A stretch of DNA of 35,247 nt from the IMG/VR virus record IMGVR_UViG_3300006805_000081, positions 1 through 35,247 of that record; one strand, 5' to 3'. The translations under genes were made by a program, and so were the position numbers. Below, one piece after another: positions 1,997 to 27,759 of the stretch. The stretch is from a virus. Every line of letters starts with the position of its first letter. The first letter of the stretch is position 1. The notes under the pieces were generated by a model, which saw only the letters and a list, made by a program, of their open reading frames with translations, was not told the DNA's origin and made no database searches.

Positions 1997-2542
1997 TCAG
2001 AGCGTCCAGCACGCCCACATCCAGTGATTGCCTTTTGCAAAGTGACTCGCCATGAATGCGAGTGCAAAGTCCGGGTCTGTTGCCTGCTCGCGCGTCACGT
2101 TCGGATGCGCTGGAAGGTGTATCTGCGCCAAGCCCCAGCTGTCCTCGCGTCCGTTTGGTCCGTCCGGGTCCGGGACGTAGCTCTGTATCTTCTCGTCGAA
2201 TGTATTTCCTGTTTCGCAGGCCACCACCCGGTACATGTCGCCGTATGGCACGCCGTACTGCTTCGCGTAGTGCCGTATTTTCGCCTCTACCGCCGGCGTT
2301 GCGTTGTCAGTGGGGTCAGGCATCGCTTCGGGCTCCCACGCCTCCTCTGAGGGCATTTCTGCCTCTTCAGGCGCCTGTTCTGCCCGCGCTACCGAGAGCT
2401 CCACGTGTACCGGAGGCGGTGTCGCCTCTATCCGGTACGGCAGGAGTGTCGCGCTCGCCACAAATGCGAGCGTCAAGAGTGCCCCGCTTGCAATGCCTAC
2501 GAGGACACCTTCTCCGCTTTGGCGCCGGTTTGTTTTTCCCAT
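1997..2542 (-). CDS. Membrane-anchored lytic transglycosylase (SLT/lysozyme-like)
   Basis: This 181-residue enzyme likely cleaves peptidoglycan between N-acetylmuramic acid and N-acetylglucosamine. Residues 12-36 form one membrane segment after a basic start (MGKTNRR), then an acidic, proline-rich linker runs to about 85. The catalytic domain carries VACETGN with the expected Glu at 110, then SWGLAQIHLPAHP (135-147) and an aromatic end, HWMWACW. The domain is short, about 95 residues, and resembles small transglycosylases of Parcubacteria. Starting at ATG 2542 gives a clean signal anchor. It overlaps the end of the methyltransferase gene by 46 bases. It is far from the lysis genes and might act during entry or wall remodelling. 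Confidence 0.85.
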   Translation of the reverse strand: MGKTNRRQSGEGVLVGIASGALLTLAFVASATLLPYRIEATPPPVHVELSVARAEQAPEEAEMPSEEAWEPEAMPDPTDNATPAVEAKIRHYAKQYGVPYGDMYRVVACETGNTFDEKIQSYVPDPDGPNGREDSWGLAQIHLPAHPNVTREQATDPDFALAFMASHFAKGNHWMWACWTL

Positions 2543-3267
2543 CGTTTGATGATGACGTCGACGTAGATCGGATCGAGCTCCATACCATAACAGCTCCTCG
2601 ATGTTTCCTCCGCCGCGATCAGTGTTGACCCGCTTCCAAGGAAGAGATCGAGCACGATGTCGTCTTGTTTTGTAGAATTCCATATTGCTATGCGCACGAG
2701 TTGAAGAGGTTTCTGCGTCGGATGATCGTACTTCGTGTCGCGTTTTAAGCGCCACACGGTACTCTCACCTTTCTCTTCACGCTCGAGCTGTTTTTTAATT
2801 CGCTTGAGGAGTTGCTCGTCGGTGAGCTCCTCCTTCCATTCAGTGTACTCTGCGCGATCGCCGTAAAAGGGCACCTTCTTGCCCTCCCGCGCAACGTACA
2901 GGATCGGTTCATGCTTCCAGCGGTAATCGCCCCATCCCATTGAGGCGACCGCCTTGACCCATATGATCTGATTCTTCACCTTGTAGCCGTTCGCGTTCAG
3001 TGCGTCTTCGAATTCCCGGTGTGTCCGGCTCGCGTAGCAGACGTACGCCGGCGCCATCGGTTTTGACGCATGCGCCATCATCGCAAACGATCCATTTAAG
3101 AGCTGCCGGAATTCCGACTCGCTCATGTTGTCGTTCATGATTTTGTTTGAGGTGTTTTTGCCGCGTCCCGAGTAGTCGACGTTGTACGGCGGATCCGTGA
3201 AGACCATGTCTGCCTGCACCCCCCCATCAGTGTATTCACGTCCTTCGGATCGGTGCTGTCCCCGCAC
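2497..3267 (-). CDS. N6-adenine/N4-cytosine DNA methyltransferase domain (3' part of a frameshifted gene)
   Basis: From about base 3225 downward this frame encodes the catalytic half of a beta-class methyltransferase. The target-base pocket FTDPPYN comes first, then a recognition segment, then HPTQKPLQLV and the AdoMet motif FLGSGSTLIAAE. The order, DPPY before FxGxG, marks the beta class. Its natural N-terminus is the ParB-like domain encoded at 3135-3758 in another frame. The two frames meet at a run of seven G, where one extra G, or a -1 ribosomal slip, restores the usual sequence MGGVQADMVFTDPPYN. The ATG at 3267 is only the first in the frame; the residues before VQAD are out-of-frame product. 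Confidence 0.85.
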   Translation of the reverse strand: MRGQHRSEGREYTDGGVQADMVFTDPPYNVDYSGRGKNTSNKIMNDNMSESEFRQLLNGSFAMMAHASKPMAPAYVCYASRTHREFEDALNANGYKVKNQIIWVKAVASMGWGDYRWKHEPILYVAREGKKVPFYGDRAEYTEWKEELTDEQLLKRIKKQLEREEKGESTVWRLKRDTKYDHPTQKPLQLVRIAIWNSTKQDDIVLDLFLGSGSTLIAAEETSRSCYGMELDPIYVDVIIKRWEKQTGAKAEKVSS

Positions 3268-3758
3268 ATGATGCGATGTCGTCCGAGTTGGTAGATGTCG
3301 CCCCGCTTTGCTTTCGGCTTCTTGATCTTCTCTGCCTCTGCATCCGCGTCGAAGTCATCGTCGCCGTCGTCTTGCTTGAAGAGCTCCTTCAGCGTCTTGT
3401 TATCGAACCCTGCCTCGAGGAGCTCGTCGACGTTGAAGTTATCCTTGAGGAGGTCGCGCTCCCACCCCTCGCGCATCGTCAGCTGATTGTTTGCCACGAG
3501 ATAGCGTTTTTTCTGCTTTGCGGTGAGCCCGGTGTGCACAATGACCGGCACCTCCTTGACGCCCTTTTTCTTGAGCGCTTCGTACCGGCCGTGCCCGGCA
3601 AGTATCACCATCTTTTCGTCCACTTCGATCGGATCTAAGTACCCGAGGTCAGTGATCGATTTCTCGATTCCTTCATCCCAGTGCTTCTTCGGATTGATCG
3701 GGTTCGGTTTGAGGTCGTCAATCTTCACCCGCTTGAGTGTTAGGTCTTTTTCTTTCAT
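3135..3758 (-). CDS. ParB-like N-terminal domain of the split DNA methyltransferase (5' part)
   Basis: Residues 9-105 are a ParB/Srx-type domain: VKIDDLKPNPINPKKH, then ILAGHGRYEALKKKGVKEV, then LTAKQKKRYLVANNQL. This domain commonly precedes phage adenine methyltransferases. An acidic linker and GDIYQLGRHRIMCGDST follow, the usual lead-in to the catalytic domain. The frame is lost at the G7 run (3219-3225) and the last 25-30 residues look like noise. The intact protein would have about 420 residues. It methylates DNA, probably to protect the phage. The upstream bases ACTAACGAAC carry no Shine-Dalgarno. Confidence 0.85.
   Translation of the reverse strand: MKEKDLTLKRVKIDDLKPNPINPKKHWDEGIEKSITDLGYLDPIEVDEKMVILAGHGRYEALKKKGVKEVPVIVHTGLTAKQKKRYLVANNQLTMREGWERDLLKDNFNVDELLEAGFDNKTLKELFKQDDGDDDFDADAEAEKIKKPKAKRGDIYQLGRHRIMCGDSTDPKDVNTLMGGCRQTWSSRIRRTTSTTRDAAKTPQTKS
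3219..3225 (-). other. G7 homopolymer at the methyltransferase frame break
   Basis: Minus strand ATG followed by seven G and TGC. With seven G the ParB-domain frame runs into unrelated residues (GGCRQTW) and terminates about 25 codons on. With eight G, or with a -1 slip, it reads GGVQADMVFTDPPYN. This may be a sequencing error, a phase-variation switch or a programmed slip site. Confidence 0.8.
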
Positions 3759-6939: not shown

Positions 6940-9066
6940 CTATTTCTTCAATACGAACCCTTGTAACCGCACCTCGCCGCGGAGTGCGTGGTGCATGAAG
7001 AGCATGTCGCCCTTCCCTGAGAGCTTCTCTGCGCCCGGCTTCCCGAGAATGATTGTCGAGTCCGTTGCGCTCGCTGTTGTCAGCGCTATCCTCGTGGGGA
7101 AGTTGGCTTTGATGAGCCCAGTGATCACATCGACCGACGGCCTTTGCGTTGCGATCACCATGTGGATCCCTGCCGCGCGTCCTAGCTGCGCCAAGCGCAC
7201 CATCAGAAGCTCGACGTTTGCGTCTGCTCGCTTCATTTCGTCGTCGGCGTCGCTCTCCTCGAGCATCTCGATCAGATCTGCCTTGGTGTAGTGCTCGATG
7301 ACCTCGTCAAGGTTCCCGAAGCGCTTCTTCGCCTCCTTGTAGAGCCACGCCTTGCTTTTTGCACCGTAGCTCATTCCGCTCTGTTTCTCTTCCTCAATCT
7401 TCGATCGGATCATCAGGTCAGCGAATTCGTCGACCACGCATACCACGTATGGCAGGCGCTTTGTTGCGTCGCGCTTGCTCGCGTTGTACTCGGCGATGTC
7501 CCGCTTGCCTGCCTTCTCGAGGGTCTTGTAGCGTGACTCCATCTCGTCTGCGAGGTGCAGGAGCGCTCGTACGGCCTCGTTGTGGTCGAAGATGATCTTT
7601 TCCCTGAGGTGCTTTACCTTGCCAAATGCCGAGAGCTCTACGCGCTTCGGATCAATGAGGATCAGCTGCATCTCTTCCGGTGTCATCTGCTTTGTCAGTG
7701 TGCCGATGAGTGTGTGGAGGAGTACCGACTTTCCGGACCCGGTCGTCCCTGCAATCAGGAGGTGTGGCATCTCTCGTAGGTCTACGCTCACGGCTTCTCC
7801 GTTCACGTCTGCCCCTACCGGGAGCTTCATCGTCCCCGGATTGAGGTCTTTAGCCCCTAGAACCGCTGCCGCACGCTTTTCGTTCTCCACTTCGACTCCT
7901 ACCAGCTCTGTGCCCGGAATCGGCGCCACAATGCGAACCTCGCCCTTTGTAGCGAGCACGCTGGCTATGTCGTCCCGGTGCTTTTTGATCGTGGTCATTC
8001 TCACTCCCGCGCTTACCTTGAAGCGATACTGCGTAAACGATGCGCCTGCTCTTGTTTCAACAGGCACCACCGGGATGCCAAATTCCCCGAGGCGCATCGC
8101 TATGCGTTCCTCAGCCGGCAGGTGCTTATTCTCTGCCCGCTCAAGGCGCGATGCCACAAATTTCTTCGAGACAAACGCCACGTCGCGCACTTTGTGGATC
8201 ACCTCGACGTCGCTCATGTCCGCGCTGATCAGTCCCTGCGCGTACAGAAGCCCCGCCTGCTCTCCATCGAATGGGTCGCTAAGGTTTGGCAGGAAGATCG
8301 GATCGCGCTTCAGGTATTCGACCACATCCCTGTAGAGGTTGTAGAAGAATATCCGGTACGGCTCATGGTCGAATGGCACCGCCCAGTCGCGTATCTGCGG
8401 GCTTCCGTCCATGTTTTTCGTGCGCTTGATCTCACGGAAGACTACTCGGTCCGCGGTGATTCCTTTCGCTGCCATCAAAAGATGGAAGAGGAATTGCGCC
8501 TGTACAATCTTGATGTAGTCCTCCGTTTCGTAATCTGTGAAGCTGGTCACGAACTTGGTGTCGATGATCTCGACTGTGCCGTCCTTTTTTTGGTGCACCA
8601 AGTCAGGCACACCAGACGCTGGGAGCGGAAGCATCTCGCCGTCCACTGTCTTGAGCTCTGCCGTCATTTTCTCTTCGCACATGAGTATCTCGTGGTACGT
8701 CGGCTCTTCGGCGAAGTAAAAGTCCATCGCTTGCGCGTAGCCCTTGAGCATTGCCTCACGGCTCCCTATTTTGCCGTAGTTGATGAAGTCATCCGAGTAC
8801 ATGTCGAGGAAGCGGAGCCCCTCGGCGACCGCCATTCCTCGAGCTTCTGTCCGGTCTGTCGGCACCGCAATGTCCGGGTCGCCCCCGTAGTAAACTTGCA
8901 GCGCCTTGTGTCCGGCTTTGCCAATCATTCCGCTCACGCTCATCTTGCCGTCGTATACCCCGAGGATGTCCCGCATCTTGAAGATCAGCGGGTTCCTGAG
9001 AAGTTGCGTCAGCGACGAGTAGTTGAGGTAACTGATCGGCATCGATACCTGCTTTTCGTTATCCAT
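6940..9066 (-). CDS. RecB/Cas4-like nuclease fused to an FtsK/SpoIIIE DNA translocase
   Basis: A single 708-residue frame. Residues 10-260 are a PD-(D/E)xK nuclease of the RecB/Cas4 group: GKAGHKALQ (His 53), SGVPDLV (Asp 155), VEIIDTKF (Asp 169, Lys 171) and IVQAQFLFHLLM (helix with the conserved Gln). Residues 325-405 match the FtsK alpha domain, ending APIPGTELVGVEVEN. The motor follows: Walker A GTTGSGKS (440-447), Walker B VVCVVDEFADL (542-552), GIHMVIATQRPSVDV (633-647) and a typical FtsK end. About 65 extra residues lie between Walker B and GIHMV. The FtsK membrane part and KOPS-reading gamma domain are missing. ATG 9066 overlaps the recT stop by eight bases, so both proteins are translationally coupled. 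It probably pumps and resects DNA ends for RecT. Confidence 0.93.
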   Translation of the reverse strand: MDNEKQVSMPISYLNYSSLTQLLRNPLIFKMRDILGVYDGKMSVSGMIGKAGHKALQVYYGGDPDIAVPTDRTEARGMAVAEGLRFLDMYSDDFINYGKIGSREAMLKGYAQAMDFYFAEEPTYHEILMCEEKMTAELKTVDGEMLPLPASGVPDLVHQKKDGTVEIIDTKFVTSFTDYETEDYIKIVQAQFLFHLLMAAKGITADRVVFREIKRTKNMDGSPQIRDWAVPFDHEPYRIFFYNLYRDVVEYLKRDPIFLPNLSDPFDGEQAGLLYAQGLISADMSDVEVIHKVRDVAFVSKKFVASRLERAENKHLPAEERIAMRLGEFGIPVVPVETRAGASFTQYRFKVSAGVRMTTIKKHRDDIASVLATKGEVRIVAPIPGTELVGVEVENEKRAAAVLGAKDLNPGTMKLPVGADVNGEAVSVDLREMPHLLIAGTTGSGKSVLLHTLIGTLTKQMTPEEMQLILIDPKRVELSAFGKVKHLREKIIFDHNEAVRALLHLADEMESRYKTLEKAGKRDIAEYNASKRDATKRLPYVVCVVDEFADLMIRSKIEEEKQSGMSYGAKSKAWLYKEAKKRFGNLDEVIEHYTKADLIEMLEESDADDEMKRADANVELLMVRLAQLGRAAGIHMVIATQRPSVDVITGLIKANFPTRIALTTASATDSTIILGKPGAEKLSGKGDMLFMHHALRGEVRLQGFVLKK

Positions 9067-9877
9067 GAGTTTCGCTGGTTCCTTCAGGTGTGTGGAGTGC
9101 CGCGCCGACCGCCGGGCCACCTGCGTCTAATCCTGCGCCTTTCATACCCTCGCCCTTGTAGTCCTCCTCGATTGCCTTGCGAATCTCCTTTGACTTCGGC
9201 AGGAGCTTTGCAAGCTGTATAAGGCAGGTTTTCTTCCACATCCACAGCTCGGGATCCTTGTCACTGTTCCATGGACTCTCCTTCGATGCTTTTGCCTTTG
9301 AGAGCTCCTTGATCGCCATGATTTCGTCCTTGCTCATCACCTTGAAGACTCGTCCGCCGTTCGTTGTTTCAACGACTGCGTAGACGCCTATCGGCTCCCC
9401 TTTTTTCTTCCCGAACTTCGTTGGCACGTGCACGAGGCGCGTGTCCAATCCTTCCGAGTACTCGAATTCCTCGTTGTCGTGGACGATGAGCGCCTTGATG
9501 CTTTTCACCTGTTCAGTGCGCCATATCAGCGACACGATGCCCTGATACCCCAGTTGGAACTTCGCCTCGTTTCCGTAGGGGATGATGTACGCCTCGCCCA
9601 TGACTCCGCTCGGCATGAGGCGCAATTGAGCGCTGATCATCAAAGCCGAGAGGAGCGACGTGCGGTCGCACTCGAGCAGTTTCGGCACCTTGCGGATGTA
9701 CTCTACCGAGCTCGTGAGGAATGCCATCGCTTCTTCCTTGTTGCCCCGGTAGTAGCTTGTGATCTGCTTCATGTACTCAGGCGCCGCCATCATTCCTCTG
9801 ACCGTGTCGATCTGCGTCGGAGGTTTTGCGTTCGGCTTTGTGACTCCGTGAGTCGGAAGCTGTCCTTGATCGTTCAT
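9059..9877 (-). CDS. recT: RecT-family single-strand annealing protein
   Basis: This 272-residue protein binds single-stranded DNA and anneals complementary strands. The family core is clear: CDRTSLLSALMISAQLRL, then the turn GEAYIIPYGNEAKFQLGYQG, IVSLIWRTEQVKSIKALIV and HDNEEFEY, and later VMSKDEIMAIK and a tryptophan-rich LWMWKKTCLIQLAKLLP. RecT normally works with an exonuclease encoded next to it; here that partner is the nuclease half of the following fusion gene, whose ATG lies inside the recT stop region. The proline/glycine-rich C-terminus is probably flexible. No Shine-Dalgarno is seen before ATG 9877 (CGAACGAAACA). Confidence 0.95.
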   Translation of the reverse strand: MNDQGQLPTHGVTKPNAKPPTQIDTVRGMMAAPEYMKQITSYYRGNKEEAMAFLTSSVEYIRKVPKLLECDRTSLLSALMISAQLRLMPSGVMGEAYIIPYGNEAKFQLGYQGIVSLIWRTEQVKSIKALIVHDNEEFEYSEGLDTRLVHVPTKFGKKKGEPIGVYAVVETTNGGRVFKVMSKDEIMAIKELSKAKASKESPWNSDKDPELWMWKKTCLIQLAKLLPKSKEIRKAIEEDYKGEGMKGAGLDAGGPAVGAALHTPEGTSETHG

Positions 9878-15801: not shown

Positions 15802-17367
15802 TTACCTGTAGAAGTACGCAGTCCCGCCCCCTGTGCTACCCGATCCAGTAAGTGTCCCCGCGGCAGGATTCCACGTGATGGTAAGTGATGCGGTCGATGA
15901 ACAGTTTCCAGTGCCAATGTCGCAGTTTGCGACCGTGCCTGAAAGAATTCCCTGACGTTTTAAGACTACCGTGTTGTGGGTCGTGAAGTCAGTCTCTGAG
16001 CTGTTTATGTTCGCAATAATTGTGTTTGTGTAGGCAGGGACTGCAATGGATCCTCCACTGTTGATTGAAGTCGATACCCCTAAGTACTCATCAGCTCTCG
16101 AGGTATCAATGTTGATTTGAGTCGACGATATTGCTTGGCCCACATAAATTGCTGCGGTTCCAACGGTTGTACCTATTGTGCCAACGGCGTCTTGAACATA
16201 GTATTCTCTACCAGCAGTTAGTCCAGTAAACCCGCCAATGACTCCGTCCGTTTGGACAAGCACCTGCTCTCCATCCGTTGCGCTAGTTACTGCAAACCCA
16301 ATGAATTCTTTCGCAAATTCACTATTTGCATCTGAGAGCTGAACCGCACCAGTAGATGTTGCCACATATACAGGTTGAGGAAGTGTGAATCCAGTGATTG
16401 TTGTTGACGCAGTCATGTACGATTGATTGCCGTACCCTATGGTTTTGCCTGTTGCTGTTGAGGTTGCAGTGTACGAAGTTGCTCCGTTAAAGGTTGCAGT
16501 GCCATTGAAGATCCACGCCCCAGTCACTGTGAACGCTTCAGTCAAATCAAGCCACAGCTGATCGAGCTTGCGGTTTATTTTTGAAACAATCACCAGCGGT
16601 CCGGTTCCAGTTGCTGGAGTCGAGCTCGAGTATGCCGTGGTGAGTGCAAGCGGTCGGTTCGGAAGGTCGGTCGTCGTCGATGCAATTTCTGTCGCCGTTG
16701 CAATTTCAAGGATACCGCCCACGCTCTCGGTTGAGGTCGCTGCGCCTTGATTCACGCTGTTGTCGACGTACGCCTTTGATGGGATGTCGAGTGTTGATGT
16801 AAATGTTGGCGCTGTCGTGTATGTGAGCTTACCGTCAAAGGTGAGTGCGTTCGGCAAGTCCTCCTGTCCGTTGATCACGCGCTTCATCTGATTGATGATC
16901 GGCGAGTCCGTGATCTTCACGGTGTCGCCACGGCGGTGTGTCTTCATCAAAGCCGAGCTCGTTGCGTTCGTCAGAGGCCAGTATCCGCGCACTACGTTGG
17001 TGCAGGCAGTCCCGGTACAATCGGCAAGCACGAATTCCTCGTTTGCTGATCCTTCGGAAAGGATGAAGCCGTACGTTGATGAGGCGAGGTTTGTCCCTGT
17101 TTTATCAGTGCCGCGTATGAGCGTGAAGCTCGTTGCTGAGCTTGAAATGCCCGAGGCGATTGCGTCTTCAAAAAGTGGCACTGGCTCCGAAATCTGAAGC
17201 GATGCCGACAGTGAGTTCAGTTGCTCTTCGTAGGTAAACTGGAGATCAAGCACATTCGCTTGCAAACGGTCAAGTCGCGCCTGCATGCTTGACAGACCGA
17301 CCGTCATGGCCATACCCGCGAAGATCAGTGCGATGATGGAGAGTGAGTTGAGTATATCCTTTTTCAT
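15802..17367 (-). CDS. Membrane-anchored tail fibre / receptor-binding protein with Parcubacteria-like sequence
   Basis: This 521-residue protein starts with a short basic head (MKKD), one membrane segment (about 9-27, SLSIIALIFAGMAMTVGLSS), and a coiled coil (residues 28-58). Beta-rich, Ser/Thr-rich repeats follow to the end, with many TATST/SSTT motifs and GLTAGREYYVQDAVG repeats of the kind seen in fibre shafts. Four cysteines (CTGTAC; CDIGTGNC) could form disulfides. The build, an N-terminal anchor with a large outer beta part, is a surface-protein pattern; in position it is a tail fibre. It follows the hub gene. Confidence 0.72.
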   Translation of the reverse strand: MKKDILNSLSIIALIFAGMAMTVGLSSMQARLDRLQANVLDLQFTYEEQLNSLSASLQISEPVPLFEDAIASGISSSATSFTLIRGTDKTGTNLASSTYGFILSEGSANEEFVLADCTGTACTNVVRGYWPLTNATSSALMKTHRRGDTVKITDSPIINQMKRVINGQEDLPNALTFDGKLTYTTAPTFTSTLDIPSKAYVDNSVNQGAATSTESVGGILEIATATEIASTTTDLPNRPLALTTAYSSSTPATGTGPLVIVSKINRKLDQLWLDLTEAFTVTGAWIFNGTATFNGATSYTATSTATGKTIGYGNQSYMTASTTITGFTLPQPVYVATSTGAVQLSDANSEFAKEFIGFAVTSATDGEQVLVQTDGVIGGFTGLTAGREYYVQDAVGTIGTTVGTAAIYVGQAISSTQINIDTSRADEYLGVSTSINSGGSIAVPAYTNTIIANINSSETDFTTHNTVVLKRQGILSGTVANCDIGTGNCSSTASLTITWNPAAGTLTGSGSTGGGTAYFYR

Positions 17368-21498: not shown

Positions 21499-21963
21499 CT
21501 ATTCCCACGTTGACTTGTTAACTGAGAGTGGACCAATTTCGATGTAATGCCACGCAATATCGCCTTCGGCGTTGCGTGCACATAGCAGTAACTGATCGTC
21601 GTATCCATCATTTCTTGAAACAAACCACAGCACTCCACGCATGCTTTCCCCTTCACAGGGCGGTATTCCAACCCCAGTGTTGAACCACACACCACCGTCG
21701 ACCTCGGTAAGGCGCCCACTTCGGCGGAGCGTATGTGCTTCGCCATCTGACTCAGCGACTGGCAGTCCAGTGTCGGTCTGCTTTTTTATTTCCTCGATTG
21801 CCTTGGCGTCGAGTGGTAAATGTTTTGCGCTCTCTTTTGTGAAGGATTCAGGCGTCTTGCTAGATGCTGGACCACTAAGCATCGGCCCTCCTACAAATGT
21901 AGTAAACCCAGCAGAAGTGATGACTGCTATTAATACGGTCAGTATGTAGTGATTGATTTTCAT
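21499..21963 (-). CDS. Hypothetical anchored or secreted protein in the tail block
   Basis: 154 residues. A hydrophobic start (residues 6-24, YILTVLIAVITSAGFTTFV) acts as signal or anchor; a linker follows, then a compact domain with WFNTGVGIPPCEGESMRGVLWFV and QLLLCARNAEGDIAWHYIEIG, with two cysteines placed for a disulfide. Not recognised; it could be a small fibre accessory or a surface protein. TATAAT (21988-21983) lies inside the end of the giant fibre gene, giving a message with a leader of about 12 bases. Confidence 0.62.
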   Translation of the reverse strand: MKINHYILTVLIAVITSAGFTTFVGGPMLSGPASSKTPESFTKESAKHLPLDAKAIEEIKKQTDTGLPVAESDGEAHTLRRSGRLTEVDGGVWFNTGVGIPPCEGESMRGVLWFVSRNDGYDDQLLLCARNAEGDIAWHYIEIGPLSVNKSTWE

Positions 21964-21966
21964 ATC

Positions 21967-24900
21967 TTATTGCACTGTCTGCATTATATCTTTCTGCCAG
22001 AACCTGAAAGAATACAATGACCACGCTGGAGCGGCCGCCGTTCCACCAGTTGCTCGAATCACTTGGAACACTGGGTATAGTGCTGTTGTTTCAGGAATAG
22101 TGTGCGTGATGCTCCCAACATAGGTCATTGGTCCAGTAAGTGAGTCTTTTATGTAAAAATTCGCTTGTGTGCCACTCACAAATTCGATGCGCATTCTCAC
22201 AATGACTGTGGTCGTTGCTACACTTGTTTCGAGAATCTGCATGGTTGAATTGAAGCACTCAGCGCGCCAATTTGAAATGGTTGAGCTGGCTATAAATCCA
22301 CAGCTTTGTCCAACGGCGGGACCACCTGTGTTGTTGCCGAATCCGAAAAACCTAGTTGTTGTTGTTGCAGTGCCTGTGTTTGCCGCACCGACCACTCCTT
22401 CAAGTATCGGCGTTGATGTCGCACGCCTATAGTTTTGATGTGAAAGATATAGGCTTCCGGTGTCAGCGGTCGAGGCGCTTGAGAGGTTCACAGACATGCC
22501 CGTCGGGCCAAAGTGCCCGCCTGCATTCAAAGCCACAGCGGTTAGCGTAGCATTTGTGACTTCATCGAACGCTATCTTACCGCAGATGTTGTTTGTGTCG
22601 GCGGATATTGCGACCTGAAAAAAAGGAGACTCTTCGCACGCAGTGTAGGTCCACGACGACGATATCGGCCCATTGACATAAAGGGTTGACTTCGCGTTTG
22701 CGTCATCGGCTCCGATAACCACGCGTGCTCCGTTGTCCGAACTAGGAATTATTGGGCCACCATTCGTTGTTGAGGTCGCTCTGATTGTTAAAAGCGGATA
22801 CCCAGTTGACGTCGCGACCTGAAAAAGAGGGCGCCCATTGCTAGGCCATGTTGAACTTGCAACGCTCAACAAAGCGAAAGGTGTTGTTGAACCTATGCCT
22901 AGGTAGCCAGCACTGTTCCACGCACTATTTGCAATTCCACCAAATGAAGCGCCGTCACGGTACTGAAGCTCTGTCCCTGATCCTCCCGGCGTGCCCCCCG
23001 CTCCTCCCTGATCTGTCCCGCAGGAAAATTGCCCAGTTGTGGAGTTATACAGCACTTTATCTGTCGTGCCGTTTGAGCATGAAGTAAGACCCCCTCCGAA
23101 CCACGATGTCGAGGATGCGTATGTCGTTGAGAAAAGCGTCGAGGTCGCGTTGCTGAATTGCTGGAGCGCAGTCCACGTATTCGCGTTTGCGAGGTTTAGG
23201 CCTATCGTGCGCGCGGTGCCTCCGTTATAAGTGCCGGAGAACGTGAGCGTGCCGTTCGTTGCGGTCAGGTCGGCCAAGTTCGAGCCGAGGGCTATGCCCG
23301 AGATAGTCGAGTTGGCGAGGCCTGCGTTTGGTATCGCAAGCGAGGAGCTTGCTGCGCTTACGAGCAAGCCTGCGGCGTTGGTGTATACAAATTGGTTTGC
23401 CGCCCACGGCGTGGTCGTCGCATTCCACGAGACTGCGTTTACCGATCGCACAAGCGGCCAGTTAAACGTGAGCGCGCTTTCTTTTGCGTTGAATGTGTTC
23501 CAGTCGGTGCCAGTGAGGCACCCGAACGTCGACGTGTCTGCGGTATTGCATACCACGTCCACGGTGTTGTCGGCGTCTTGATAAGTTACCGTGATGCCGG
23601 TTTCGGTGTTGCCAGTGAAGAAAGCGCCTGCAGTATCGGCTATGTACTCAGCGAGCGTATCAGCTCCCACGAATATGTTCGTAAACCATCCCGTCACTAC
23701 TGTTGCGAGCGTTGTGCTGGCGTTTGAAAACTGCGACGTTCCTGATGCGTGTATGCCTGCGGTGAATTGCGTCTTGGTCGAGGTCGCCGATCCTGTTACA
23801 CCGAATCCGATGTCTTGATTGTATGAAAAGTCCGGCGCGTATCCGTCGCCACCTGCTCCACCATCGTCGGAGCCGTCGCACAGGTCGGCCGAGCCAGTAA
23901 TGCTCACGCAGAAGTCGTCCCACGAATTGCCAGTCACACCACCGAAAGTCAGGATGCTGGTGATGTCCATTGCGGTCGTTGTTGCATTGGTTGTCGTCGA
24001 GTTTCCTGCACGGAAATTGCCGGGGAATATAACGTGGTTTGGCAAGGACAGCGTCCATGTTCGGTTTGTTGAAATATCTTGCGCGCCTGCTGAGGAGGTT
24101 AGTTGATTTGCCGTCCCTGCAATCGTGAGCGTTGTCGCGCCGAGCGCTTTAGCATCGAGTGTGCTTTGGAGTGGTATCACGTATCCGGTATCGAGTGCAA
24201 TCGCGGCATTGCCACCTATGACGTAGCGATTACTAGTCACGGTCAGTCCTGTCGGCACCGAAAGCGTGCCAGTTGCGACGGAGCCGAGCAAAGCAGGAAA
24301 TCCGTTCGTTGTGGTCCAGTATGAAATATGTCCAGCCGTTTCTTGCGAGGACGTACCGACCGTTCCCGATCCGCCTCCGCCGGTGCACGTGCCTGCGCCA
24401 AGGATGCCGTTTGCGTCGGTGCCAATGCAGTCCAATGATTCAAGCCCTGTCAGACGCACGTCCTTGCCGTAGGAGCGCTGTGTGATCGCGCTTGATGGCG
24501 AGGTCGTTGATGTAAATTGCGGGAGTGTGCTTACGGTATCACCGAGCGGTGCTGATGTATCTGCTCCCTGAGGTTGCATATAGAAAATTGTCCCTGCAAC
24601 AGTTCCGGCAAGTGCTGCGGCTCCGATGAATGCTATGAGTGCAATCGATACAAAGCCACGAGTCGCTGTCGGAATCCTTCGCCTCCGAGGAGGTACTACC
24701 AGTCCGGGATCGTTTGCCTCTATCTCCGGGATCGGCTCGGCTTCCATGTCTTCCGGCTTGGCAATCGTCAGAAATGGCACCTTGTTTATCTTTTGGATCA
24801 TGCCATTCACTGATTCCGCGACTTTCCCTGCTACCGACTCCATCGTCGCTGACGCCTTGCTGATCGGTTCGAACAGTTTTGCCAGCGCTTCCCTGATCGT

Positions 24901-25539
24901 GTTGCCTTCCTTACGTACTGCATCGATGACCGGCCCCACATCGGTCTTTTCGGTCACTGGCTTGGCGTCTATTGCCCCTAGAATGGCGTTTTTGGCGTCT
25001 ACGCTCGCCTGTGCGAGGCGTTCTATGGCTTCTGTGTGGTTTGGCACCTCTATGCCCTGAACCGCTGACAGGACGTCATTTACGGCGCCGAGGATGCGCT
25101 CCTCCGTGCCGGTCAGGTCTACTTTTTGCGGTCTTGGCACCTTGACCGGCTCTTGCTCCTTCAAAATCCCGCGAAGCATGTTGCCGAGTCGCTTGTAGTC
25201 GATGTCCGGGCCGCCTCCTGCCCCGAATGGAGGGGTTGCCCGATCTTGCACAAGGTATACGGCGTTCTCGCGTCCGTAGACGTCGCTCACGGTCGAGTAC
25301 CCGGAGTCCGTGTACACGATCGTTTCGATGTCGATGTAGAATCCCTCGCCCGAGGTGTCCGCAGGTACTTGCCAGTCGCTACGAAAACGCTGACCGCCCT
25401 TGTCGCTCAAGTTGAGCGTTGCGAGCAGCGTATCGTCGTGCGCGTTTCGGATCTTCGCTTGAACGTAGTACGTTCCGCTATCGAATGGATCCGAGAGTTG
25501 CCTGACGACTGCGAATTGTTCCTGCGGTTTGAGTTGCAT
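21967..25539 (-). CDS. Giant fibre / surface adhesin-like protein with an internal membrane segment
   Basis: 1,190 residues. Residues 1-105 are a beta domain (YYVQAKIRNAHDDTLLATLN). Residues 140-255 are helical (DAKNAILGAIDAKP, KASATMESVAGKVAESVNG). RRRR (285-288) then precedes one membrane segment (about 296-319, FVSIALIAFIGAAALAGTVAG). The rest is about 870 residues of beta-rich, Ser/Thr-rich sequence with ATST/SSTT motifs and cysteine pairs. It includes YLGIGSTTPFALLSVASST, a motif I associate with Parcubacteria surface proteins, and a C-terminal lectin-like part. Arginines on the N-terminal side predict the long part outside. It may be a tail fibre using a captured host domain or a protein inserted in the cell surface. 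No peptidase or chaperone is apparent. Confidence 0.72.
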   Translation of the reverse strand: MQLKPQEQFAVVRQLSDPFDSGTYYVQAKIRNAHDDTLLATLNLSDKGGQRFRSDWQVPADTSGEGFYIDIETIVYTDSGYSTVSDVYGRENAVYLVQDRATPPFGAGGGPDIDYKRLGNMLRGILKEQEPVKVPRPQKVDLTGTEERILGAVNDVLSAVQGIEVPNHTEAIERLAQASVDAKNAILGAIDAKPVTEKTDVGPVIDAVRKEGNTIREALAKLFEPISKASATMESVAGKVAESVNGMIQKINKVPFLTIAKPEDMEAEPIPEIEANDPGLVVPPRRRRIPTATRGFVSIALIAFIGAAALAGTVAGTIFYMQPQGADTSAPLGDTVSTLPQFTSTTSPSSAITQRSYGKDVRLTGLESLDCIGTDANGILGAGTCTGGGGSGTVGTSSQETAGHISYWTTTNGFPALLGSVATGTLSVPTGLTVTSNRYVIGGNAAIALDTGYVIPLQSTLDAKALGATTLTIAGTANQLTSSAGAQDISTNRTWTLSLPNHVIFPGNFRAGNSTTTNATTTAMDITSILTFGGVTGNSWDDFCVSITGSADLCDGSDDGGAGGDGYAPDFSYNQDIGFGVTGSATSTKTQFTAGIHASGTSQFSNASTTLATVVTGWFTNIFVGADTLAEYIADTAGAFFTGNTETGITVTYQDADNTVDVVCNTADTSTFGCLTGTDWNTFNAKESALTFNWPLVRSVNAVSWNATTTPWAANQFVYTNAAGLLVSAASSSLAIPNAGLANSTISGIALGSNLADLTATNGTLTFSGTYNGGTARTIGLNLANANTWTALQQFSNATSTLFSTTYASSTSWFGGGLTSCSNGTTDKVLYNSTTGQFSCGTDQGGAGGTPGGSGTELQYRDGASFGGIANSAWNSAGYLGIGSTTPFALLSVASSTWPSNGRPLFQVATSTGYPLLTIRATSTTNGGPIIPSSDNGARVVIGADDANAKSTLYVNGPISSSWTYTACEESPFFQVAISADTNNICGKIAFDEVTNATLTAVALNAGGHFGPTGMSVNLSSASTADTGSLYLSHQNYRRATSTPILEGVVGAANTGTATTTTRFFGFGNNTGGPAVGQSCGFIASSTISNWRAECFNSTMQILETSVATTTVIVRMRIEFVSGTQANFYIKDSLTGPMTYVGSITHTIPETTALYPVFQVIRATGGTAAAPAWSLYSFRFWQKDIMQTVQ

Positions 25540-25630: not shown

Positions 25631-25921
25631 CTAGGCAGTTGGCGACCAGATCACCGTGACCTTTGTCTGATTCGTCAGGTCGAGTGTGATGCCTTTGTGG
25701 AAGTGCGCGTTCACTTCGATGACGCCGTTTGAGGTCATGAGTGTCGACCCGGTCACTTGGAGCACGACGTTTGCGTCGCCGTCCGAAGGATGGTCAGACA
25801 CCTCGACGTCGCCCGAGGCAACGTCCGCGCCGATGATGATCCGGTGAAGAATCGCCGCTTTCGTCGTCACGACTTTGTCGGCGCCGGCGGTTGCGAAGTG
25901 AGTAATGGTTCCGTATTGCAT
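25631..25921 (-). CDS. Small beta-rich head protein, possibly decoration
   Basis: 96 residues of regular beta strands (MQYGTITHFATAGADKVVTT, AILHRIIIGADV, LQVTGSTLMTSNG, ITLDLTNQTKVTVIWSPTA) without charged surface clusters. Such small sandwich proteins near the coat gene are often decoration or head-completion proteins. It follows a stretch of hairpins in the message (25956-26016). The leader lacks a Shine-Dalgarno and is A/C-rich (CAACAACTCAC). Confidence 0.6.
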   Translation of the reverse strand: MQYGTITHFATAGADKVVTTKAAILHRIIIGADVASGDVEVSDHPSDGDANVVLQVTGSTLMTSNGVIEVNAHFHKGITLDLTNQTKVTVIWSPTA

Positions 25922-26021: not shown

Positions 26022-26522
26022 CTATCGCTCGACTCGGTATGAAACCGAGGTCGTTGCTACTGGGAACGATGACGTTGCAGCACCTGTGTCATTCATGATG
26101 CTGAACGTGATCGTGTCCGTTGATGCGGTGCATCCGGCGACGAACAATCCGCCGAATGGTAGATCGTAGTTGGGAAGTGTGACGTGGCACTGATCGCCTG
26201 CCACTGCTCCTGTGACGGTGCAGGTGAAGGCATCAGTTGATGTTGCTTCCAGCGGAAGCAACGCCGTTGCTGCGTTACAGGTCCCTTCGATCACTTTCGT
26301 CTGACTTGACCCGCTGTCCCCGAGGGTAAAAGCGGGATTGCCTGACGTGCCGTCGAAGACGAGATCGCCTGCGACCCGAAGGCCGTTCACGAAGTCGGTT
26401 TGCTTATGCTCGAGCACTGAGCCCGAGAGTCCGCCTCCGCTCGTGAATGAGAGCACTAGAGCGACCACGGCCACCACGAGTCCGAGACCCGCTACGAATC
26501 CAGTTGTTTTAGAGTTGTCCAT
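26022..26522 (-). CDS. Membrane-anchored capsid-module protein
   Basis: 166 residues. A membrane segment at about 7-27 (GFVAGLGLVVAVVALVLSFTSG) is followed by an extracytoplasmic beta domain with four cysteines (EGTCNAATALLPLEATSTDA, TCTVTGAVAGDQCHVTLP, VAGCTAS). The domain resembles small Patescibacteria surface domains. It is encoded 31 bases after the major capsid gene, where decoration proteins usually lie. It could decorate a virion with membrane contact or be a host-surface protein made in quantity. Not assignable to a family. Confidence 0.62.
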   Translation of the reverse strand: MDNSKTTGFVAGLGLVVAVVALVLSFTSGGGLSGSVLEHKQTDFVNGLRVAGDLVFDGTSGNPAFTLGDSGSSQTKVIEGTCNAATALLPLEATSTDAFTCTVTGAVAGDQCHVTLPNYDLPFGGLFVAGCTASTDTITFSIMNDTGAATSSFPVATTSVSYRVER

Positions 26523-26553: not shown

Positions 26554-27759
26554 CTAGAAGGCGTCGCTTCTAATGCCTACGTCGACCAGTTGGTCGGCGC
26601 CCTCTGAGAAGGTCTTGAGGCCGAACACCGTCCACGAGACGACGTCCTTACCGATGTATCCGTCGCGTTCCTTGATCAGCATGTTCGGACGCTTTTGGAT
26701 CACGAGGTCGATCGGCTTGCCCTGACCGAAGAGGTTGTGCTGGATCTGCTTGGCGAGCGTCCAGATGTCTGCAGCCGCGGTGAGCGTTTCCGATACCGCG
26801 ATGTAGCTGTACCCGAGAGCAGTGACACGAAGACCTCCCGAAATTGCTGCCGCGCTGATGCCTTTCAGAAGGTTCTGATTCGCTGTCGAGAGCGCTTGGA
26901 ATGTTGCAGAGGTCGTACCCGGTGCGTTAATCGCAGACACGAGATAGCCGGCCGAAACCGCACCGCTCGTTTCTGCTTTCACCTTTCCAGCAGCGTCGAT
27001 CGAACCGGTTTCGAACGTGAACGTCACGCCGTTGATCACGACAGTGTCGCCGTCAGTCGGGGTCGTGCCGATCAAGAGGTCGCCGGTCCAAGCGAGCGCG
27101 TTCGTGCGGATAAGGCGGAAGCCGCCCCAGTAGCCCGAGCGCCCACGCACGCCGTCGCGTCCTGCCTCGTCGCCGAGCATGGATTCACGACCGCCGATGC
27201 GCTGCCAGAGGACGTTGTAAAACTGCGGCGAGATCATTGCCCATCGATCGTCCATATCGATGTCGAGCGCGTCGAGCGCTTCGTTCGCTTCGCCGAAGAT
27301 CTTGTCGATGTTCGACGTAGTGAGCGTGATGCCGTTTTCATCCGTGCCGCCGATGTCACCATCGTCGACGTCTGACGTTGCCGCAGAAAACTGACCGAGG
27401 ACTTCTCCGTCGATCGTGTTTCCGAGCTTGACCGCTGCGTCGTCGGCATAGCGGTTTGCAGTCGGATAATTCGACTGCATTTCGTCGATTTTGCGGATGT
27501 AGAAGGATACTTCCTTCTCCTTGTTAATGACGAGCGACTGGTCGGTATCCGTGACCTCCTGTCGAGAGTATGCTCCGTCACTGGAAAGGTCATTCACTAC
27601 AAGGTTCGAGCGGCTCGGTCGGTGAACGGTGTCACCTCTCTCGAGCGTTGCCTCTTCCTCCATCGAGACGATCTCGCGGTAGCGATCCGTCTTATAGTGC
27701 TTGCGCTGCATTCTTCGGGACCAGTATTCCGGGAATGATGCGCTTACGTTGTTTGCCAT
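26554..27759 (-). CDS. Major capsid protein (HK97/P22-type) with an inserted beta domain
   Basis: 401 residues. The N-terminal arm (FPEYWSRRMQRKHYKTDRYREI) and VVNDLSSDGAYSRQEVTDTDQSLVINKEKEVSFYI match the N-arm/E-loop of podovirus coats; DRWAMISPQFYNVLWQRIGG and YWGGFRLIRTNALAW are P-domain elements; the end DVVSWTVFGLKTFSEGADQLVDVGI is the usual A-domain close. Between about 225 and 338 sits a domain starting DGDTVVINGVTFTFE, a known insertion on phage coat surfaces. It follows the acidic scaffold gene, as expected. The phage GroES may serve its folding. Confidence 0.87.
   Translation of the reverse strand: MANNVSASFPEYWSRRMQRKHYKTDRYREIVSMEEEATLERGDTVHRPSRSNLVVNDLSSDGAYSRQEVTDTDQSLVINKEKEVSFYIRKIDEMQSNYPTANRYADDAAVKLGNTIDGEVLGQFSAATSDVDDGDIGGTDENGITLTTSNIDKIFGEANEALDALDIDMDDRWAMISPQFYNVLWQRIGGRESMLGDEAGRDGVRGRSGYWGGFRLIRTNALAWTGDLLIGTTPTDGDTVVINGVTFTFETGSIDAAGKVKAETSGAVSAGYLVSAINAPGTTSATFQALSTANQNLLKGISAAAISGGLRVTALGYSYIAVSETLTAAADIWTLAKQIQHNLFGQGKPIDLVIQKRPNMLIKERDGYIGKDVVSWTVFGLKTFSEGADQLVDVGIRSDAF

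Follow-up and report, generated by a model that had tools for sequence, protein, structure and literature searches.

Two late phage genes fused in one reading frame place a fibre signal sequence inside a 1190-aa protein

How does a giant fibre-like protein encoded among the virion genes of a tailed phage come to carry a membrane segment in its interior, and on which side of the membrane would its parts reside? We examined these questions for an ORF at positions 21967-25539 (minus strand, as are its parts and the late genes located below; ATG start; 1190 aa), with coordinates agreeing exactly with those of a preliminary description, in the window, that is, the whole 35.2-kb phage contig analysed. 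The terminase, SU10-type portal, scaffold and capsid genes lie upstream and in the same direction, so that the ORF falls within the virion gene block, in a late position after the gene for the major capsid protein (phrog_267, 26554-27759), the marker of that block. Searches with the full 1190-aa protein against Pfam, PHROGs and PDB sequences, and by tblastn against INPHARED, returned nothing useful.

The preliminary description had called attention to a basic stop and a membrane segment at residues 296-319, and both are present in the sequence. RRRR occupies residues 285-288 (24676-24687) and precedes the single strong hydrophobic segment, at about residues 292-319, of which residues 296-319 (24583-24654) form the predicted membrane/export segment. 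The most hydrophobic 19-mer of the protein starts at residue 296 (Kyte-Doolittle 2.29), and the apparent insertion energy is -1.25 at residues 292-314 vs +2.4 for the best segment elsewhere; transmembrane and signal calls here combine hydropathy with this energy estimate rather than a trained predictor. Taken alone, the hydrophobicity is only moderately unusual: whole-protein shuffles produced an equally hydrophobic segment anywhere in 3.9% of cases and at residues 270-310 in 0.05%. The segment is convincing because it sits at the junction where relatives have an N-terminal signal, and because of the cysteine pattern described below. A strong hydrophobic segment behind a basic stretch is the layout expected for type II (N-in, C-out) insertion or Sec export.

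The 1190-aa ORF is a fusion of two late genes

Over its first ~290 residues the ORF matches proteins encoded separately in the related loci L010, L013, L014, L016 and L017 and on L002's contig, with 36-60% identity to the stand-alone proteins in the adaptor-domain region. An alignment of these separate adaptor-like proteins, used to query IMG/VR, yielded 53 loci; fusion was counted over the 44 distinct phages, window included, in which the gene is complete. The adaptor part is a gene of its own in 43 of the 44 and is fused only in the window. According to simple rules, which make the counts approximate, the gene after the adaptor encodes a fibre-like protein whose N-terminus is a signal or anchor in 19/44 (with an ATGA overlap in eleven), a ~230-aa tail gene follows in 20/44, and another ORF without a signal in four. 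Adjacency of adaptor and fibre is thus common but not universal, since the L002 fibre is encoded six genes beyond the adaptor.

Because the next gene in 19/44 starts with a signal peptide or anchor, the segment corresponds to the N-terminal export signal of the downstream gene. The L002 fibre, with an N-terminal signal sequence ahead of the matching part, is 49% identical to the ectodomain over about 400 residues. Residues 329-388 (24376-24555; QFTSTTSPSSAITQRSYGKDVRLTGLESLDCIGTD) match L077 immediately after MKKWLLVSLLLFPSLALA-QG, with 46% identity over 151 residues, and in both L002 and L077 the motif QFTSTTSPSxSITQxxYGKxxRLTG stands directly behind a signal peptide that looks cleavable. This conserved N-terminal fibre motif (QFTSTTSPSSAITQRSYGKDVRLTGLE...), a probable docking segment, likewise follows the signals of L016 and L045. 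The ORF thus joins, in frame, two late phage genes that every other relative found keeps apart. One encodes a cysteine-free adaptor-like protein composed of an Ig-like sandwich and helices, the other a modular fibre whose N-terminal Sec-type signal sequence has become the internal segment 296-319. The segment reported earlier as internal is real, but its internal position results from a gene fusion that the preliminary description did not mention.

The adaptor-like part begins with a cysteine-free Ig-like beta-sandwich (residues 1-100; 25240-25539) that AlphaFold models confidently (pLDDT about 81-93), followed by a low-confidence helical or coiled-coil linker ending in RRRR (residues 101-290; 24670-25239), where the modelled helices are unreliable. 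Foldseek matched the N-terminal domain weakly to the TP901-1 baseplate (4v96; E 9e-4, low TM-score) and, at about 1e-5 to 1e-4, to viral models bearing the names BppU, L-shaped tail fibre or neck passage structure; no sequence match to a BppU model was found in Pfam or PHROGs. These fold matches suggest that the domain may be a virion adaptor, while leaving membership of the BppU family unproven.

Beyond the docking motif, residues 389-954 (22678-24375) carry the fibre-like repeats DWNTFNAK, GIGSTTPFALLSV and ATST. The repeats noticed previously are there, GIGSTTPFALLSV once and ATST five times in the 1190 aa, and they are ordinary phage-fibre modules, homologous to those of the same types in phage fibres. 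The C-terminal region (residues 955-1190; 21970-22677) looks all-beta, and a sequence search with these ~230-236 aa found no relatives; an AlphaFold model of the C-terminal 230 aa was set aside (pLDDT 39).

Cysteine pairs and membrane segments in the late block

Residues 1-370 contain no cysteine, and the remainder contains 12, in six local pairs (371/385, 544/554, 664/674, 821/840, 968/986 and 1080/1095) whose partners each lie within 19 residues; when the cysteines are placed at random, about 2.5e-5 of trials give six pairs as close. The paired cysteines occur solely beyond the membrane segment, as expected if that part faces an oxidising exterior. Among 21 exported fibres, window included, 136/147 cysteines lie no more than 30 residues from a partner, against 68±7 expected, and the cysteine number is even in 20/21 proteins, although these counts are less independent than the figures imply because the modules share ancestry. 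Eight controls, consisting of signal-less phage fibres and tail proteins, show no excess (16/39 paired; expected 12.6±3.6), and the signal-less fibres of L043 and L052 have no close pairs. Stand-alone adaptor-domain proteins are nearly cysteine-free, with 5 cysteines in 5986 aa vs 116 in 14190 aa for fibres. Cysteine pairing thus lends independent support to a predicted export of the ectodomain. The earlier proposal that about 870 residues lie outside the cell gains backing, at the level of sequence, from the homologous signal peptides at the same place and from the confinement of cysteine pairs to the putative outer part.

The late block of the window's virus group as a whole is unusual. From the capsid gene onward, 24/58 proteins of the window and six relatives have N-terminal membrane segments, vs 0/24 late proteins of SU10 and P22, holin aside (Fisher p 4e-5); L008, a relative by capsid alone (34%), has no such segments in its late proteins. 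In the window, a 166-aa protein directly after the capsid gene (26022-26522; homologue L002_146) has an N-terminal membrane anchor, as does a second fibre-like protein of 521 aa (15802-17367; cysteine pairs 117/122 and 482/489; homologues L016_502 and L002_474), and a 154-aa protein with two cysteines (21499-21963) has an N-terminal signal or anchor. A 96-aa beta protein (25631-25921) lacks the N-terminal anchor of its 134-aa homologue in L017. Relatives in dozens of phages suggest that this group sends fibre-like proteins across the host membrane.

Export is evidently not essential to the adaptor-fibre arrangement, since in L017, L043 and L052 the fibre adjoins the adaptor without a clear signal sequence. 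Signal-less fibres directly after the adaptor gene, found in L043, L044, L046 and L052, while relatives export theirs, provide naturally occurring comparisons for how export is gained or lost. Separately, a signal-bearing fibre-like protein at L013:8771-11314 contains a Phage_cement_2 domain (PF09956), a family usually linked to capsid decoration.

Host and other genes of the window

An amidase-like endolysin gene in the window suggests that the host is probably a bacterium containing peptidoglycan. A genome scan with the N-terminal domain gave one match, a phage contig in a Pacearchaeota bin; this 39.6-kb contig of the group (L018/L013) was probably misbinned into the Pacearchaeota MAG. Across 193 genomes of the Pacearchaeota phylum, the capsid family had one strong match, on L013's contig, and two weak ones. 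An archaeal host, as L013's bin would imply, was rejected in favour of probable misbinning, given the single strong capsid match and the endolysin gene.

Only 2/25 confident window genes are preceded by a Shine-Dalgarno-like motif, and positions -3 and -6 show a strong preference for A, which suggests that initiation in the host may be of a non-SD type. With the motif so rare, the production of two proteins from the fused ORF via an internal ATT start behind GGAGG was judged unlikely. The window also encodes, on the minus strand, a GroES (Cpn10; 1044-1388) and a single ORF combining a PD-(D/E)XK nuclease domain with an FtsK/SpoIIIE-type ATPase (6940-9120), which adjoins a RecT gene (9059-9877). 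Within 2497-3758, also on the minus strand, overlapping frames encode a ParB_N domain (3135-3758) and, at 2497-3267, an N6/N4 DNA methylase, possibly one protein split by a frameshift.

Export of the fibre, alternatives and known systems

The 1190-aa protein is most likely the phage's own receptor-binding-type fibre, predicted to be exported or membrane-anchored, and the combination of gene fusion, internal signal and N-in/C-out orientation of such a fibre probably accounts for the observations jointly. The first ~290 residues would remain in the cytosol with RRRR on the inner face, and about 870 residues would lie outside the cell, where the six local disulphides would form; more generally, fibre-like late proteins of this virus group would be exported rather than assembled in the cytosol only. 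In the likeliest working mode, the infected cell would display the fibre tethered to its membrane, where the protein's inner domain could conceivably bind the virion or a tail part. Several observations weigh against this explanation: export is dispensable in L017, L043 and L052; signals in many relatives look cleavable, so that anchoring may not be general; the late-operon position is at least as easily reconciled with a virion component as with a cell coat; the transmembrane and signal calls depend on hydropathy and an energy estimate; and the structural resemblance to adaptors scores poorly (PDB E about 1e-3, with low TM-scores and unreliable helices). The late position favours a virion role while signal sequences and disulphides favour export, and the two are compatible if it is at the membrane or outside it that fibres and virions come together.

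These same observations bear on the alternatives. If signal peptidase cut the internal segment, the fusion would be a small polyprotein whose adaptor stays inside while the fibre is released and docks onto virions after lysis via the conserved N-terminal motif. The AxA-type sites of close fibre relatives (L077 SLALA-QG, L002 PAAHG-QG, L082 LASA-QG), an ALA-G site within the window's hydrophobic segment and the conserved docking motif immediately behind the signal all fit such cleavage; we nonetheless regard it as less likely, given that the stretch, at about 26 residues, exceeds the usual signal core and contains the ALA site within it, and that internal signals are cleaved less often. An ordinary tail fibre assembled in the cytoplasm, with the hydrophobic stretch never at a membrane and serving oligomerisation or virion docking, would suit the late-gene position, the phage fibre modules, the signal-less L043 and L052 and the 3.9% of shuffles that were equally hydrophobic. 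It is unlikely in view of the positively charged, signal-like N-termini of homologues in 19 phages, the restriction of cysteine pairs to the outer part and the N-terminal anchors of several neighbouring late proteins.

The preliminary description had instead proposed a captured host adhesin, or a protein coating the host and altering attachment of an episymbiont. The architecture is indeed that of an exported fibre, Patescibacteria are reported to possess giant surface proteins that carry signal or TM regions (PMC13059738), and residues 955-1190, having no known relatives, leave room for a host origin of the tip. This proposal now appears very unlikely: the homologues found are all phage genes on phage contigs, in a conserved late virion neighbourhood, albeit with the fibre part compared with phage sequences, and host capture is unnecessary since the repeats are phage-fibre modules common to phage fibres without signals. 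Least probable, in our assessment, is that an assembly or sequencing artefact lost a stop codon in a virus that truly has two genes. The ORF is fused in only 1/44, and no second contig of the window virus was found, but the junction is open across the entire linker without a frameshift scar, and no ATG, GTG or TTG stands shortly ahead of the membrane segment, so that if a single stop had been lost the fibre gene would lack an ordinary start codon.

Returning to the exported fibre as the favoured explanation, we tentatively extend it, with less than even confidence, to a broader proposal: widespread uncultured tailed phages may export receptor-binding fibres and other late proteins via host Sec, form their disulphides outside the cytoplasm and attach them to virions either at the membrane or on its far side, with adaptor and exported fibre here combined in one membrane-spanning protein. 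To our knowledge, tailed phages are not known to export fibre-like proteins routinely. Export signals and paired cysteines in fibre-like late proteins of >40 related phages would imply either a novel way of assembly or fibres that phages make for the cell surface, and the fused window protein provides a single testable molecule linking the two sides of the membrane.

Known systems share parts of this design. BppU-type baseplate/fibre adaptors such as that of TP901-1 (4v96) head fibre proteins with an N-terminal beta-sandwich followed by helices, a build that the window domain may share; the window domain has no Pfam or PHROGs match, a weak structural score and a membrane segment next to it. 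The modular tail fibres L004, L005, L006 and L007 have the DWNTFNxK / GIGxxxPxxKLxV repeats and modular build in common with the window protein, but lack a signal sequence and contain few, unpaired cysteines. By description, the giant surface proteins of Patescibacteria, being large, signal- or TM-bearing and adhesin-like (PMC13059738), also resemble the window protein, which, unlike them, is encoded in a phage virion block. SU10-like podoviruses share with the window the portal family PF23899 and the TerL-portal-scaffold-MCP order, whereas the late proteins of SU10 and P22, except holin, are free of the membrane segments that characterise the window's group.
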